Position numbers and translations under genes: made by a program
The notes under the pieces: generated by a model
Told to the model about the DNA's origin: nothing
Seen by the model: only the letters and a program-made list of their open reading frames with translations
Databases searched by the model: none
DNA from: JALTID01 sp027004335 [NCBI: bacterium]
Lineage (GTDB): Bacteria > JALSQH01
Assembly: GCA_027004335.1 (NCBI GenBank)
Contig: JALTID010000223.1
Span: 1 to 6,837, forward strand
Direction: 5' to 3'
Length of the DNA: 6,837 nt
Shown: positions 1,140 through 6,645 of the stretch, one piece after another
Layout: every line of letters begins with the position of its first letter
Numbering within the stretch: position 1 is the stretch's first letter

Positions 1140-1967
1140 ATGCACCCAGTTCTTATTAAGATTGGGCCGGTTGTTATTCATACCTATGGTGTAATGGTTG
1201 CTCTGGGTTTTATAATGGGTATGTGGTACTCTGCCAGAGAGGCGGAGAGGCTGGGCCTTGAGGTAAATAGGATCCTTGATCTTGCCTTCTGGGTACTAAT
1301 TGGTGGTCTTGTTGGGGCAAGATTACTTTTCATTATAACTCTCTGGAAGGATTTCATGCGTTATCCTATCCAGATGCTGGAAATCTGGAAGGGTGGTCTT
1401 GTGTGGTATGGAGGGGTAATTGGTGGTGTTCTTGTTGCCTACTGGTATATAAAAAGATATAAATTACCCATGTGGACAGTGCTGGATATAATCGCAACCG
1501 GTGCTTTTCTGGGACTTGCTTTTGGTAGATTTGGATGCACTTCTGCTGGATGCTGTCATGGTAAGGTTATAACATGGGCTAATCCTCAGCATCCACCATG
1601 GTGGTCTCTCGTTTTTACTGATGATAGAAGTCTTGTTCCCATCTCCATGAGAGGCAAGCCTCTCTATCCCACCCAGCCTCTGAGCTCTCTTTGTGCATTT
1701 TGTTTATTTACTTTTCTTATTATATGGAGGAAATACAAAAAATTTGATGGCCAACTTGTTGCCTTCAGTTTGATAATTTATTCAGTTTACAGATTCCTGA
1801 TTGAATTTTTAAGAGGGGATACAATCAGAGGATTTGTTATTCCAGGAGTTCTTTCCACTTCACAGTTCATAGGAATCTTCACTTTTGTATTTGGAATATG
1901 GCTTTACTGGTATTTAAACGAAAAGGAAAAAGTGAGAAGTGGGGTTGTGGTAAATGGGAGAATATAG
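1140..1967 (+). CDS. lgt: Prolipoprotein diacylglyceryl transferase (Lgt)
   Basis: Lgt is a polytopic inner-membrane enzyme that moves diacylglycerol from phosphatidylglycerol to the lipobox cysteine of prolipoproteins, the first lipoprotein maturation step. The 275 residues are a normal length. Seen in order: the HTYGVM start (14-19), G59-A60-R61 in the second helix, KGGLVWYGG (84-92), the signature GRFGC (129-133) followed by SAGCCHG (135-141), YPTQ (176-179), and YSVYRFLIEFLRGD (214-227). R130 and R218 likely match the essential arginines R143 and R239 of E. coli. About seven hydrophobic segments are visible. AGAGGAG at 1128-1134 lies 5 bases before the ATG and fixes the start. The well-known catalytic-region HGG of E. 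coli (H103) is YGG here (Y90). The stop overlaps the next gene by 14 bases, suggesting coupled translation. Confidence 0.96.
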   Translation: MHPVLIKIGPVVIHTYGVMVALGFIMGMWYSAREAERLGLEVNRILDLAFWVLIGGLVGARLLFIITLWKDFMRYPIQMLEIWKGGLVWYGGVIGGVLVAYWYIKRYKLPMWTVLDIIATGAFLGLAFGRFGCTSAGCCHGKVITWANPQHPPWWSLVFTDDRSLVPISMRGKPLYPTQPLSSLCAFCLFTFLIIWRKYKKFDGQLVAFSLIIYSVYRFLIEFLRGDTIRGFVIPGVLSTSQFIGIFTFVFGIWLYWYLNEKEKVRSGVVVNGRI

Positions 1968-2223
1968 CGAAAAGAGCAAGTACCATGTGATAAATAAGCT
2001 CTGGCTTGATGGAATGAATGTATGGCACACCTATATTCAGGGTAAGGAGGAGATCCTTGGTAAGTTGAACGAGGTTCCCATCCCATTTGAAGAAGGTGCC
2101 GAGTGGGAGAGTTTTGAGGGTTTCAAATTCAGAATAGCGGATCACAGGATAATTAAGATCTATGACCCTCTTGAAGAGGGGGATCTTGATGAGGAGGAAT
2201 TGCTCAGCCGCTGGAAGAAGTGA
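1954..2223 (+). CDS. Small acidic hypothetical protein, coupled to lgt
   Basis: I do not recognise this 89-residue protein. It has no signal peptide or membrane helix, so it is probably cytoplasmic. It is rich in aromatic residues (WLDGMNVWHTY, 17-27; AEWESFEGFKF, 49-59) and has an acidic end, EEGDLDEEELLSRWKK (74-89). The middle part VPIPFEEG (41-48) and RIADHRIIKIYDP (60-72) looks like a small folded beta-rich domain. Its ATG lies inside the end of lgt, overlapping by 14 bases. No strong Shine-Dalgarno sequence precedes it, which fits translation by ribosomes finishing lgt. Its last 64 bases overlap the convergent phosphoesterase gene. Sensible composition, operon position and an open frame support a real gene; conservation was not tested. 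Confidence 0.72.
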   Translation: MGEYSEKSKYHVINKLWLDGMNVWHTYIQGKEEILGKLNEVPIPFEEGAEWESFEGFKFRIADHRIIKIYDPLEEGDLDEEELLSRWKK

Positions 2224-3470
2224 GATTTTTTCATTAGCAAAAAAGCTGCACAAATCATCATCATACTTTCTATAAAGTCGTAAGAATTGGTACTTCCAGA
2301 GGTACATCCCCATGTATAGATTTCTTCTTCCGGTGGCTTTTCTCCGATGTAGAAATTATCGATTATATCTCCGTTTATAGCGATTGCTTTAATGTGAATA
2401 TATTTCTTTTTTACCTTAACCAGAACAAAATGGAAATGTTTTAACGACGAGTTGGTGTCCAGTACCTGGCTATAGGGATTAAGTTTTTTGAAACCAATAA
2501 TTGATGGTGGAGCACCTCCCCCACCGGTTGTGATAAAATAAACACCGTCTTTGTAACTCCTTTCATACAGATGCTCGTGACCGTTAAACACAATTGTTAC
2601 ATGGTACTTAATTGCCAGTGGTGCCAGGATCCTCCCTGCCATATCCTCATATTCATCTCCCCGCATTTTATGAAAGGGACCCGATGTAAATGGAGGCCTG
2701 TGGTAGAACATGAATTTGTATTTTGCCTTCTTTTTATCTGCATTTGATAGTTCTTTTACCATCCAGTGATACTGAAGACTGTCAAGGGTAAATGGTTTTT
2801 CTGTGGAGGCAACCATGAAAAAAACTTTATCTACCCAGAATGAGTAGTATGACCCAGTTTCTGTTACTTCTGGAGGAAAATAGAAGAGATCCGAGAGCGT
2901 GATATTCTCCTCCCCCACATCGTGATTCCCCTCCACAGGGTAGAAAAAGTGTGAAGAAAGCAAGGGAGATTCGATCGTGAAAAACTTATCCCACTGCCTC
3001 AAATAGTCTTTTTCGTCCATATCTCCTGTGTTAAAGTAAAAATTGAATTTGTATTTTTCCATTAAATTAACCACTTCTCTATGGTAGTAATCACCACTTC
3101 TTGTGTCTCCCATTACTGCAAAAGAGAATTCACCCCCTTCTGGAGGAGTTCTGAATGAGAATGTTTTTCTGCTTCCTGCTATTTTGTAAAAAAATTTTGA
3201 ATCGGTGGGCAGCATTTTGAATAGTGAGCAATATCTGTATCTTCCCGGAACAATTGTGCTTTCCTCTTTCAGGGAGGGAAAATAGAAAGCGTTGAATTCA
3301 TCCCACAGGGTAACAGAAAGATTGTCTAATTTTTCGTTACTCTGCCAGCAGATCGCAGCTGTGCTTGCCGGTGAAGGAGATATTAAGTAAGGGCCAATTA
3401 TAACATCTGAAAAAAGGAATTTACCTTCTATTAGAAGAAGGAGTATAAAAAGAAGACTGGAAAATTTCAC
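2160..3470 (-). CDS. Exported purple-acid-phosphatase-like metallophosphoesterase, second paralogue
   Basis: This is a 436-residue secreted calcineurin-like phosphoesterase that should hydrolyse phosphate esters outside the cytoplasm; the substrate is unknown. A signal peptide (1 to about 21) precedes an N-terminal fibronectin-like domain (about 22-110) and the metal-binding domain (about 115-375). Metal motifs are GDTRSG (121-126), NTGD (147-150), GNHD (181-184), YHRPP (256-260) and GHEHLYER (297-304). Motif II lacks the tyrosine that gives true purple acid phosphatases their colour. The end has GC (388-389), a hydrophobic stretch (about 399-413) and KK, like a Cys-containing C-terminal sorting signal. 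The start is GTG in a GTGA overlap with the preceding gene's stop; the Shine-Dalgarno match is poor and a stop lies just upstream in frame, so coupled translation is likely. Residues after about 415 form a Ser/Arg tail encoded opposite the convergent gene. Confidence 0.9.
   Translation of the reverse strand: MKFSSLLFILLLLIEGKFLFSDVIIGPYLISPSPASTAAICWQSNEKLDNLSVTLWDEFNAFYFPSLKEESTIVPGRYRYCSLFKMLPTDSKFFYKIAGSRKTFSFRTPPEGGEFSFAVMGDTRSGDYYHREVVNLMEKYKFNFYFNTGDMDEKDYLRQWDKFFTIESPLLSSHFFYPVEGNHDVGEENITLSDLFYFPPEVTETGSYYSFWVDKVFFMVASTEKPFTLDSLQYHWMVKELSNADKKKAKYKFMFYHRPPFTSGPFHKMRGDEYEDMAGRILAPLAIKYHVTIVFNGHEHLYERSYKDGVYFITTGGGGAPPSIIGFKKLNPYSQVLDTNSSLKHFHFVLVKVKKKYIHIKAIAINGDIIDNFYIGEKPPEEEIYTWGCTSGSTNSYDFIESMMMICAAFLLMKKSHFFQRLSNSSSSRSPSSRGS
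2166..2180. repeat. Short perfect hairpin inside the convergent gene overlap
   Basis: CCCTCT (2166-2171) pairs with AGAGGG (2175-2180) around a TGA loop. It lies in the stretch shared by the ends of the 89-residue gene and the phosphoesterase gene, just before the latter's TAG stop (2160-2162). It resembles a terminator stem for minus-strand transcription, but only a poor T-tract follows, so termination is uncertain. Confidence 0.3.
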
Positions 3471-4792
3471 CTGCGCTCTGATTTTTTTAATCTAAAAGTA
3501 AAGTAGATTGCTCCAACGAATATCAGGAGAATAACTCCTTCCGTTGTTGAGCCTCCGCTTTCCCTGCAACTGCAGCCGGTGGATTTTTCTTTCTGCCCGG
3601 TTGCTGATTTTTTCCCTATTACCAGATCATCTATCACCTCATTATGCATGGTAATTGCTTTCAACTCCACATAGGTTGTTCCTACATCAACAAGAACAAA
3701 ATGGAAATGTTCTAGATCAGCATTGGGCTCGCAGTACTGACTGTAGGGGTCAATTCCCTTTTCGCATATAAATGCAGGAGTGGCACCTCCCCCACCTGTT
3801 GTTATAAAATAAACACCATCTTTGTAGTTTCTCTCGTAGAGGTGTTCATGACCGTTGAAAACAACAGTGACTCCATATGTTATTGCCAGTGGTGCTAAGA
3901 TACTTGCTGCTGCTTCCTCACCTTGATCCTCTGTTACGCCGTGAGGACCTGAGCTGAAAGGTGGTCTGTGGTGAAACATGAATTTGTGAATAGCACCCCT
4001 TTTCTCTGCATTTTTCAATTGATTTTCAAGCCAGTGATACTGGGGAGAATCAGAGGTAAAAGGTTTCTCTGTAGAGGCAATCAAAAAGAAATTCTTACCA
4101 ACCCAGAAGGAATAGTAAGAACCAGTAGGTGTTACCTCTTCAGGATAGTAGAAAATTTTGCTGTAGGGGATACCTTCACCACTAACATCATGATTCCCCT
4201 CAACGGGAAAGAAGAAATGAGAAGATAAGAGAGGTTGTTCTATTTCAAAAAAAGGATCCCACTCATCAAGGTCATCTTTCCACACAAGATCTCCTGTATT
4301 AAAGTAGAATGAGAATTTGTATTTTTCCATAACTGCGATAACTGCTCTGTGGTAATCATCTCCTGATCTTGTGTCCCCAATTACAGCGAATTTGAAATGT
4401 TCGGTGCTGCTAAGAGTCTGAAAACTGAAAATGGATGAGGTTCCCGGTATAGAATAAAAATATGTTATTGCAGGAGAGAGGTTTTTAAAACTGGCACAGT
4501 AACGGTATCTTCCATCATAAACCGTTGCCCATGTTGCAGGTTCTGACATATTTAACTCTGAGGGAGATGTTCCCATTTTAACCGTGGGATTTTCTGGCTG
4601 AGCATTGGTATGCCAGCAGATAGTTGCACTATCCTGCAGATCAAAAGACTGAATAAAGGGTCCATATATCTTGGCTTGCAGGAGTACTGGAAAAAAGAAA
4701 AAAGCGAGAACTGTCAGGATTGCTGGCCCGGAGGCAAAATCGCCTCTTTGTGTATTGTAATTTCTCCTTTTTCCTGTAAGTATCTTAGCCAT
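3467..4792 (-). CDS. Exported purple-acid-phosphatase-like metallophosphoesterase, first paralogue
   Basis: This 441-residue protein is a paralogue of the next gene downstream; 24 of 30 residues match between metal motifs I and II. A hydrophobic signal segment (about 24-40, ending LLQA) is preceded by an unusually long basic N-region. The fibronectin-like domain spans about 41-128. Metal motifs are GDTRSG (139-144), NTGD (165-168), GNHD (199-202), HHRPP (274-278) and GHEHLYER (314-321), so the dimetal site looks complete except that motif II carries Trp (GDLVW) where purple acid phosphatases have Tyr. The C-terminus has GCSC (406-409), a Gly/Ser linker, a membrane segment (about 419-434) and RLKKSERR, matching the layout of MYXO-CTERM-type sorting signals. 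The first 79 bases lie inside the ppiD coding region, yet no other ATG, GTG or TTG start occurs before the signal segment. Confidence 0.9.
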   Translation of the reverse strand: MAKILTGKRRNYNTQRGDFASGPAILTVLAFFFFPVLLQAKIYGPFIQSFDLQDSATICWHTNAQPENPTVKMGTSPSELNMSEPATWATVYDGRYRYCASFKNLSPAITYFYSIPGTSSIFSFQTLSSTEHFKFAVIGDTRSGDDYHRAVIAVMEKYKFSFYFNTGDLVWKDDLDEWDPFFEIEQPLLSSHFFFPVEGNHDVSGEGIPYSKIFYYPEEVTPTGSYYSFWVGKNFFLIASTEKPFTSDSPQYHWLENQLKNAEKRGAIHKFMFHHRPPFSSGPHGVTEDQGEEAAASILAPLAITYGVTVVFNGHEHLYERNYKDGVYFITTGGGGATPAFICEKGIDPYSQYCEPNADLEHFHFVLVDVGTTYVELKAITMHNEVIDDLVIGKKSATGQKEKSTGCSCRESGGSTTEGVILLIFVGAIYFTFRLKKSERR

Positions 4793-6645
4793 TTTTCCTC
4801 CAGTTTTTCAGATACTTTTTCTCTGAATTTTTTTTCTACTCTATCTTTGTTTTTTCTAAAATCTTTTGCATTTACTTTCTTATGCTCTTTCAGTGCTATT
4901 ACAAAGAAATTATTTTCTACCGTGAAAACCTTTTTGGGAAACGGGTTTTTTTCTGAAAGTCTGAAGGCAGACTGCCATAGCTCCAGATTTTTCCCGATGC
5001 CAGGAATGGAAGGTGATGATGGGGTAAATTCACCAGTTTCTTCAACCTTAAGATGCATTCTTTTAGCAGCCTTTTTTATGTTATTATATTTTTCCATGAG
5101 GGAAAGAAATCTTGAAGCTTCTGCTGCTGCCTTTAATTTTGCCTTGTTCATTTTAAGCTTTTCTGTGATCTTATCTTTAACTTCTGGAAATGTTTGCTGA
5201 TAAGGAGGTTTTTCACCGTTAACTTTTACGATATAGGCCCCTGAGAATGTGTCAAACTTAAACGGTTTTGAAATATCTTTCTGGGCAAATACTTTATCTC
5301 TAAAAAAAGTCGGATCAGGTACATTTTTGGGAACAATATGCTCTTTATCGAAATAATTTGTTTCTTTGACCTTAGCACCGAATCTTGCTGCAAGGGATTT
5401 TAAGTCTCCAGTTTTTTTAGTTTCTTTAAAAGCATCACTTATTTCTTTTTTCTTTTTCTCCAGTATCTTCTGTGAAAGTTCAAATTTTATTCTTGTCTTT
5501 ACTTCACTGAGAGGAGAAATTCCTTCTCCTCTCTTCCCTTCCACCTTTATTATGTGAAATCCAAATTGACTTCTCACAGGACCTGTAATTTCACCTGAAG
5601 CAGTATTGAATGCTGCATCTTCAAAAGATCTTACCATCTCTCCTCTTCCAAACCAGCCGAGTTCTCCCCCTCGGGAGGCTGAAGGGCCCTCAGAGTACTT
5701 TTTGGCTAATTTTGCGAAATTAAAACCTTTTTTAGCAAGGGCAAGTATCTTAAGTGCTTTTTTCTTAGCCTTTTCAACTTCTTCCGTTGAGGCATTGGGG
5801 GAGACTTTTATAAGGATGTGCCTTGCTTTAACCTCTTCCCCGTGCTGAAATTCATCCTGGTGCTGGTTATAGTAATCTTTTATCATCTTCTCAGTTATTT
5901 CGTTTTGACCTGGTATAAGTGGGATATAGACATATTCTGTTTTCCTGAGTTCTCCTGTTTTAAATTCATCTTTGTGCTGAGTGTAATAATTTTCTGCTTC
6001 CCTTAACGATACCCTCTCCCGAGGAATGAATTGCTGAGGTGTGAACTTAACATAATATAGATTAATTTTTTCATTTTCAGCATAGTAGAGTTCAAATAAT
6101 TCTTCATTTTCAATAAACCATGTGTTCTGAACTAAATTGTCAAATCGCACAGATCCCAGTTGTATTTTCTCTTCTTTTTCAAATTCTGCAGGAGTTAGAG
6201 GTGGTCTGGAATCTCTTAAAACTCTTTCATACAGTCTCTGGTTGAATCTTCCACCATACTGAAATGCTGGAATAGATGCTATCCGTTCTGCGAGGGTCTG
6301 ATCATCAACATCCATACCTAACTCTACTGCTTCTTTTGATTTTAGTAGTTGGATTATCATCCCATAAAGTATCTGCTCTCTGAAATGAATTTTTTTCATA
6401 AGAGCTTCATCAAATTTATTCCCGAATTTTTTCCTGTAAATTTCTACATATCTTGAGAGAAGAAGATTATAATCCTGAAGATAGATTTTCTCTCCGTTTA
6501 CCTCAGCTACAACTCCACTTCCCATTTTACTTGTTCTTCTGATGCCTGTTAAGATTCCGAAACCTATAAAAAATGTAAGGGCGATCAGACCTGCACCCAA
6601 TTTTACAGCAGGTGAATTCGCTCTTTTTCTTACATAGTCAAGCAT
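4714..6645 (-). CDS. ppiD: Membrane-anchored periplasmic peptidyl-prolyl isomerase/chaperone PpiD
   Basis: PpiD is a SurA-like chaperone with a parvulin domain, held at the periplasmic face of the inner membrane near the Sec translocon, where it receives newly exported proteins. The 643 residues are typical. A short cytoplasmic N-terminus (MLDYVRKRAN) precedes one membrane helix (about 16-35), then a helical SurA-like chaperone region (about 45-210). The parvulin domain runs from about 273 to 371, with ARHILIK (274-280), GGELGWFGRGEM (326-337), FEDAAF (341-346) and FGFHIIKVE (361-369). A Lys/Glu-rich helical C-terminal half follows. AAGGAG before the ATG (bases 6652-6656 carry AGGAG) gives a good start, 11 bases after the preceding gene's stop. 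The 3' end overlaps the first phosphoesterase gene by 79 bases. The operon suggests that it serves the phosphoesterases among its clients; that is inference. Confidence 0.93.
   Translation of the reverse strand: MLDYVRKRANSPAVKLGAGLIALTFFIGFGILTGIRRTSKMGSGVVAEVNGEKIYLQDYNLLLSRYVEIYRKKFGNKFDEALMKKIHFREQILYGMIIQLLKSKEAVELGMDVDDQTLAERIASIPAFQYGGRFNQRLYERVLRDSRPPLTPAEFEKEEKIQLGSVRFDNLVQNTWFIENEELFELYYAENEKINLYYVKFTPQQFIPRERVSLREAENYYTQHKDEFKTGELRKTEYVYIPLIPGQNEITEKMIKDYYNQHQDEFQHGEEVKARHILIKVSPNASTEEVEKAKKKALKILALAKKGFNFAKLAKKYSEGPSASRGGELGWFGRGEMVRSFEDAAFNTASGEITGPVRSQFGFHIIKVEGKRGEGISPLSEVKTRIKFELSQKILEKKKKEISDAFKETKKTGDLKSLAARFGAKVKETNYFDKEHIVPKNVPDPTFFRDKVFAQKDISKPFKFDTFSGAYIVKVNGEKPPYQQTFPEVKDKITEKLKMNKAKLKAAAEASRFLSLMEKYNNIKKAAKRMHLKVEETGEFTPSSPSIPGIGKNLELWQSAFRLSEKNPFPKKVFTVENNFFVIALKEHKKVNAKDFRKNKDRVEKKFREKVSEKLEEKWLRYLQEKGEITIHKEAILPPGQQS
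4797..4801 (-). promoter_or_regulatory. Strong ribosome binding site embedded in ppiD
   Basis: GGAGG on the minus strand lies four A residues before the ATG at 4792. It sits within the ppiD coding sequence, 79 bases before the end of that gene, and decides the start of the first phosphoesterase. Confidence 0.8.

Follow-up and report, generated by a model that had tools for sequence, protein, structure and literature searches.

The 6,837-nucleotide stretch of DNA analysed here, hereafter the window (contig JALTID010000223.1 of assembly GCA_027004335.1, from the bacterium JALTID01 sp027004335), encodes two tandem metallophosphoesterases that are very probably substrates of a myxosortase system, an already known type of system in a lineage new to it. 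Both proteins end in a Cys-containing tail, tails of the same layout recur in other proteins of this genome and of a relative from a sister genus, and the relative encodes a myxosortase-family protease directly after mutS. We designate the window's genome G000 (1.5 Mb in 262 contigs, 80% complete, with the window as contig C223) and the relative G001; further G-numbers denote other genomes of a 59-genome set. Besides G000 itself, G001 is the only member of the family in that set, and by the taxonomy of the relative set the remaining 57 genomes have only the domain in common with G000, so that the lineage looks isolated among the compared genomes. A literature search found no report on the G000/G001 lineage, which does not exclude that one exists.

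Protein 1 (positions 3467..4792, minus strand, 441 amino acids) is a predicted secreted, purple-acid-phosphatase-like metallophosphoesterase with a signal-peptide-like start and the motifs GDTRSGD, GDL, GNHD, HHRPPF and GHEHLYER. Its tandem paralogue, the likewise predicted secreted protein 2 (2160..3470, minus strand, 436 amino acids), starts at a GTG codon that overlaps the stop of gene 1 by 4 bases. Pfam Metallophos matches both phosphatases, the purple acid phosphatase N-terminal domain is also found in protein 1, and purple acid phosphatases make up most of the solved chains that a structure search with protein 1 matched (best E 2.3e-10); the motifs GDTRSGD, GD, GNHD, HRPPF and GHEHLYER are retained in both proteins. 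The tail of protein 1 (3470..3577, minus strand) opens with GCSC (residues 406-409, Gly-Cys codons at 3572-3577) and leads through a hydrophobic segment (residues 419-433, positions 3494-3538) to the end RLKKSERR, while that of protein 2 (2163..2309, minus strand) opens with GC (residues 388-389, codons at 2304-2309) and has its hydrophobic segment at residues 399-413 (positions 2232-2276) before the basic end KKSHFFQR. A short Gly/Ser/Thr-containing linker separates the Cys from the hydrophobic segment in both. The first-pass annotation had described precisely this ending, and its description is exact to the residue. Because the bodies of the two proteins are 56% identical outside the tails (203 of 364 aligned residues), the two tails are not independent observations.

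It is well supported that the tail is a real, genome-wide C-terminal sorting signal. The profile search for more carriers that the first-pass annotation had suggested, together with the filter and model matches given below, found five further proteins in G000, seven in total, and 13 in G001, and both totals are lower bounds. A first profile, built on both window tails and that of the G001 orthologue, recovered two further G000 proteins (E 0.001 and 0.028) along with one match that is not a tail (C133). A five-tail profile added two tails in G000 and five in G001, where four of its ten matches are not tails (C145, C45, C157, and C117 on the matched strand). A twelve-tail profile added one in G000 (C63) and four in G001 (C54, C118, C41 and C65), with three of its 13 G001 matches again not tails (C223, C71:14870 and C39). 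The G001 tail of C117 was picked up by a layout filter, and those of C17 and C46 via the MYXO-CTERM model. The filter, which looks for Gly-Cys, a hydrophobic stretch and the end of the protein in open reading frames (ORFs) of at least 150 amino acids, was positive for none of 442 ORFs from other genomes, 16 of 98 from G000 and G001 together and two of seven from G049, rates that are not fair frequencies given that the G000, G001 and G049 loci were chosen for containing tails. The twelve-tail profile gave a match at E <=1 in 41 of the 59 genomes; among the best matches of 28 of the 39 genomes outside G000 and G001 (ORFs of at least 60 amino acids), inspection found real tails in G049 only, and a 62-residue ORF of G040 was dismissed despite its E of 0.0003, being short and without Gly-Cys. 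In the distant G049, two related proteins have the same ending, one 40% identical over 292 residues to C247 and the other 42% over 152 residues to the C139 protein of G001.

Gly-Cys, a linker and a hydrophobic segment are common to all 20 tails of G000 and G001, and in 19 of them at least two Lys or Arg residues come after that segment. The Cys is followed throughout by Ser, Thr, Gly or Val, mostly Ser or Thr, and a second Cys is present as CxC in six of the 20. Cleaner evidence for the conservation of Gly-Cys comes from five orthologue pairs, because the pairing uses the protein bodies and not the tails. With bodies that are 59% (C223/C221), 39% (C247/C175), 66% (C196/C54), 54% (C113/C118) and 42% (C147/C168) identical, Gly-Cys is kept in both tails of every pair while the segment after it has diverged. 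The orthologues thus keep the Cys on which the first-pass annotation had made its reading depend.

Standard models mostly miss these tails. Against the MYXO-CTERM model TIGR03901, with its curated cut-off of 20 bits, none of the seven G000 tails scores over the cut-off (the single match reaches 15.5 bits), and in G001 one of 13 does so (20.6 bits), with one more below at 18.4 bits. The earlier suggestion of tails that escape standard models is supported for most of them. When 19 tails, two of them from G049, were searched singly at E <=10, the MYXO-CTERM model matched five (best E 5.7e-6) and JDVT-CTERM six (best E 0.0068), counts in which the matching members are not distinguished.

The carriers are diverse. 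In a Pfam scan that covered 19 of the 20 (C221, the orthologue of protein 1, was left out), 11 have a domain over the cut-off: Metallophos in the two window proteins, LTD in C196 and C117, C25 peptidase in C113 and C118, S8 subtilase in C139, SBBP with PKD in C41 and C46, He_PIG in C71 and FG-GAP in C17. The remaining eight of the 19 have no Pfam domain over the cut-off, C247 and C262 among them giving weak, sub-cut-off Ig-like or PKD matches. A signal-peptide-like start was seen in all eight inspected G000 and G001 carriers with a visible start; the call was made by a hydrophobicity script for seven and by eye for the GTG-start protein, and not by a dedicated predictor.

The CPBP-family protease that the first-pass annotation had sought is whole in G001, and in G000 its gene is cut by a contig end. 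The G001 gene that follows mutS (Pfam) on contig C193 encodes a CPBP protein, the second in that genome, which scores 124.6 bits on the myxosortase core model NF040914 against a cut-off of 100 (126.6 bits in the genome search). Its catalytic motifs are present: EE...R (LPEEFFYRG), His (ALGHF) and H...N (FHASSN); the motif residues of MrtX are E146, E147, H188, H223 and N227 (PMC11980579). Among NCBIfam models the protein fits MrtP best (166.6 bits, cut-off 250), followed by MrtC and MrtX, all below their own cut-offs. On the G000 contig C213, mutS is followed by an ORF that reaches the contig end after 111 codons; 57 of 107 aligned residues of this ORF are identical to the G001 protease, and it gives a weak MrtP match (E 1.4e-6). 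A search of the 80% complete G000 assembly with the core model found no match, and the break of contig C213 short of the catalytic half explains why the gene was missed. A myxosortase-type gene directly after mutS is found in three genomes of two families (G000:C213, G001:C193 and G015:C119), and the G015 protease, from the other family, matches the core model.

Proteases of this kind co-occur with the tails over the 59 genomes. The myxosortase core is over its cut-off in seven genomes, and a Gly-Cys tail is present in six of these seven versus three of the other 52 (Fisher's exact p 1.2e-5), where a tail call is the best MYXO-CTERM match (E <=1) of each of 28 genomes read to the stop codon, genomes without such a match are scored as tail-less (other tail styles would escape), and G000 is scored against the association, its protease gene being cut. 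Nine of the 28 best matches are Gly-Cys tails at the C-terminus. Five others (G005, G009, G043, G047 and G057) are tails of PEP type that lack Cys, G052 has a further Cys-less tail, and the matches of the remaining 13 genomes are chance or have no Cys. The three tail genomes without a core over the cut-off are G000, G011, with a sub-cut-off core of 82.5 bits, and G034. Type II secretion, judged on the secretin GspD alone, is indicated in both genomes of the lineage: with the model TIGR02517 (cut-off 351.35), G000 scores 360.8 bits, from a partial gene, and G001 530.7 bits.

Several observations weigh against assigning the two phosphatases to a myxosortase system. Neither phosphatase gives an NCBIfam match up to E 10. 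The tail profiles favour Gly-Cys, and its fixity in the whole set of tails is partly by construction. The one tail without the basic end, that of C196, finishes in FF. As the G000 assembly lacks the catalytic half, the case for the protease in that genome is built on its N-terminal half and on synteny. G034 is a true exception to the co-occurrence, since its 272-residue ORF (L210 790-1608) ends in Gly-Cys, a hydrophobic stretch and basic residues although the core model matches nothing there; conversely, G021 has a core protease and no MYXO-CTERM match, and no tail was found there.

Could the tails simply be C-terminal membrane anchors that stay uncleaved, with a Cys that is structural or paired in a disulfide? 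By eye, the hydrophobic segments are membrane-spanning or nearly so, and an uncleaved state would also be compatible with the sequences. We nevertheless consider a plain anchor unlikely, as Gly-Cys is kept in the orthologue pairs despite the diverged segment that follows, and a myxosortase-family protease is at hand that co-occurs with such tails. The three-part layout is also common to GlyGly-CTERM and PEP-CTERM signals, and the GlyGly-CTERM model matched one of the 19 single tails (E 0.029), but membership in a GlyGly-CTERM/rhombosortase or PEP-CTERM/exosortase system is hardly credible in view of the invariant Gly-Cys and the larger number of tails matched by MYXO-CTERM and JDVT-CTERM, both of which are Cys signals of CPBP proteases. 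This alternative was weighed by the tails, rhombosortase and exosortase genes having been left out of the genome searches.

A further alternative accepts processing and assigns it to another CPBP protein, the 242-residue product of G000 contig C187. As the sole Pfam CPBP match in G000, it was the initial myxosortase candidate and was demoted once the mutS-linked gene emerged via G001. It is 77% identical in G001, and its best NCBIfam model is the archaeomyxosortase MrtA (NF040590; 76.3 bits, cut-off 200). C187 has Trp for the first Glu of EE...R, as do 33 of 40 sequences compared, and Gly for the Asn of H...N; the MrtA model has hardly any preference for Glu or Asn at these two sites, so the residues alone do not exclude it. 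The substitutions at catalytic sites nonetheless count against C187, as do a score of 16.7 bits on the myxosortase core, its position between two epimerase-family genes, an order repeated in G001 (G000 L052 551-3291; G001:C109 L051 637-3379), and the flanks of its relatives. Such Trp-Glu CPBP proteins, mostly with H...G for H...N, are found in records from Ignavibacteria, Bacteroidetes, planctomycetes and others, and the flanks of 29 loci of this type (ORFs of at least 60 amino acids) contain no Gly-Cys tail of this kind. A core myxosortase, or the cut gene of G000, is also present in four of the six genomes with a strong Trp-Glu CPBP match, versus four of the other 53. Neither the mutS-linked nor the C187-type protease matched a solved structure at E <=1. 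Judged by its sequence, C187 is a poor myxosortase candidate, and its being the processing enzyme in place of the mutS-linked protein is very improbable.

With the two phosphatases read as myxosortase substrates, a pathway can be proposed in which cleavage, lipidation and a surface location are modelled on the MrtX work in Myxococcus xanthus. The proteins would be exported via their signal peptides and inserted into the membrane through the C-terminal segment, their basic end staying on the inner side, as their sequences suggest. The mutS-linked protease would then cut at Gly-Cys, to which its family, co-occurrence and synteny point. A lipid may be attached to the Cys, the weakest step and one drawn by analogy, and the type II system, for which the GspD-type secretins of G000 and G001 would qualify, may move the protein to the surface as in the MrtX work.

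The gene lgt (1140..1967, plus strand), encoding prolipoprotein diacylglyceryl transferase and a candidate for the lipid step, lies next to the phosphatases, and to the first-pass annotation this neighbourhood made a C-terminal lipid anchor conceivable. We rejected the adjacency as evidence. One lgt was detected in each of G000 and G001, where it is a single convergent gene and adjoins just one of the tail loci. G001 has the same succession of lgt, small ORF, phosphatase and SurA-like gene, and the neighbourhood is therefore inherited; it says little on function because lgt is oriented towards the phosphatases and the remaining tail genes are on other contigs (five of seven in G000, 12 of 13 in G001). 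In published work, Lgt is the leading candidate for the lipid step of MrtX, a hypothesis supported by cleavage in E. coli (PMC11980579). It is possible, although on balance doubtful, that in this lineage Lgt puts diacylglyceryl on the C-terminal Cys, behind which the mutS-linked myxosortase subsequently cuts, a single housekeeping Lgt serving N- and C-terminal lipoproteins of opposite orientation. The present data neither strengthen nor exclude Lgt as the Cys-modifying enzyme.

The rest of the window consists of neighbours. An 89-residue ORF after lgt (1954..2223, plus strand), convergent with protein 2 and with a similar ORF after lgt in G001, gave no match at E <= 0.01 in a Pfam scan. The gene for protein 2 overlaps this ORF by 64 bases (2160-2223), with about the last 20 residues encoded opposite it; in G001 the phosphatase and the small ORF do not overlap, and the overlap in the window may reflect a lost stop codon. 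Upstream of the phosphatases lies a gene for a SurA/PpiC-domain protein (4714..6645, minus strand), a neighbour to which we assign no role in the tag pathway, and the window additionally contains a cut moeA (Pfam).

A separate observation concerns G036, of which 366 ORFs were available, from at most 0.5 of 4.3 Mb. At the C-terminus of eight of its proteins, CCG, GCGC or GCGG (in one case CCGRL) comes after an acidic stretch, with no hydrophobic segment beyond the Cys, and all six ORFs whose last 60 residues contain DDDDD belong to this group (L004 1381-2847, L030 266-1711, L058 1944-3308, L060 1575-2831, L061 13623-15191, L240 4942-8973, L243 549-1382 and L252 3-407). Five of the eight come from loci chosen by phosphatase matches and three from arbitrary stretches. 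Reading the other frames past the stop in two of the eight genes revealed no shared hydrophobic segment. G036 also encodes a core-model myxosortase and, among the sampled ORFs, two MYXO-CTERM-like tails that bear a transmembrane segment (L190 and L230). Judged by their sequences, the acidic endings look like a MYXO-CTERM signal in a gene that stops where the protease would cut.

MYXO-CTERM has been described as a tag specific to myxobacteria (PMC11980579). The presence of tags, a core protease and a secretin in a lineage that has only the domain in common with the other 57 genomes widens the search space for Cys-based C-terminal anchoring. Annotation would miss the system, as most tails are under the model cut-off, and the 20 tags with their five orthologue pairs provide a compact basis for a better tail model. 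G000 and G001 also offer a test case for which enzyme modifies the Cys.

Among known systems, the bacterial lipoprotein pathway of Lgt and LspA shares with the proposed one its outcome, a modified Cys that would serve as membrane anchor, whereas here the Cys is C-terminal, there is no lipobox and the membrane orientation is opposite. MrtA is the best model for the Trp-Glu CPBP protein of G000 and G001, which lies far below its cut-off. MrtP (NF040674) and MrtC (NF040594) are the best full-protein matches of the G001 protease (E 1.1e-48 and 1.5e-36), below both curated cut-offs. Compared with the MYXO-CTERM/MrtX system of Myxococcus xanthus (PMC11980579; TIGR03901, NF040593), the window tails are not over TIGR03901, mostly Ser or Thr follows the Cys, Lys and Arg are mixed at the end, and the G001 protease, whose gene comes after mutS, fits MrtP best and is over the cut-off only on the general core; seven and 13 carriers were found here versus the 35 reported for M. 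xanthus. Both have the Cys signature GC or GCxC followed by a hydrophobic segment and a basic end, a glutamic protease of the myxosortase family, a GspD-type secretin and secreted hydrolases as carriers.

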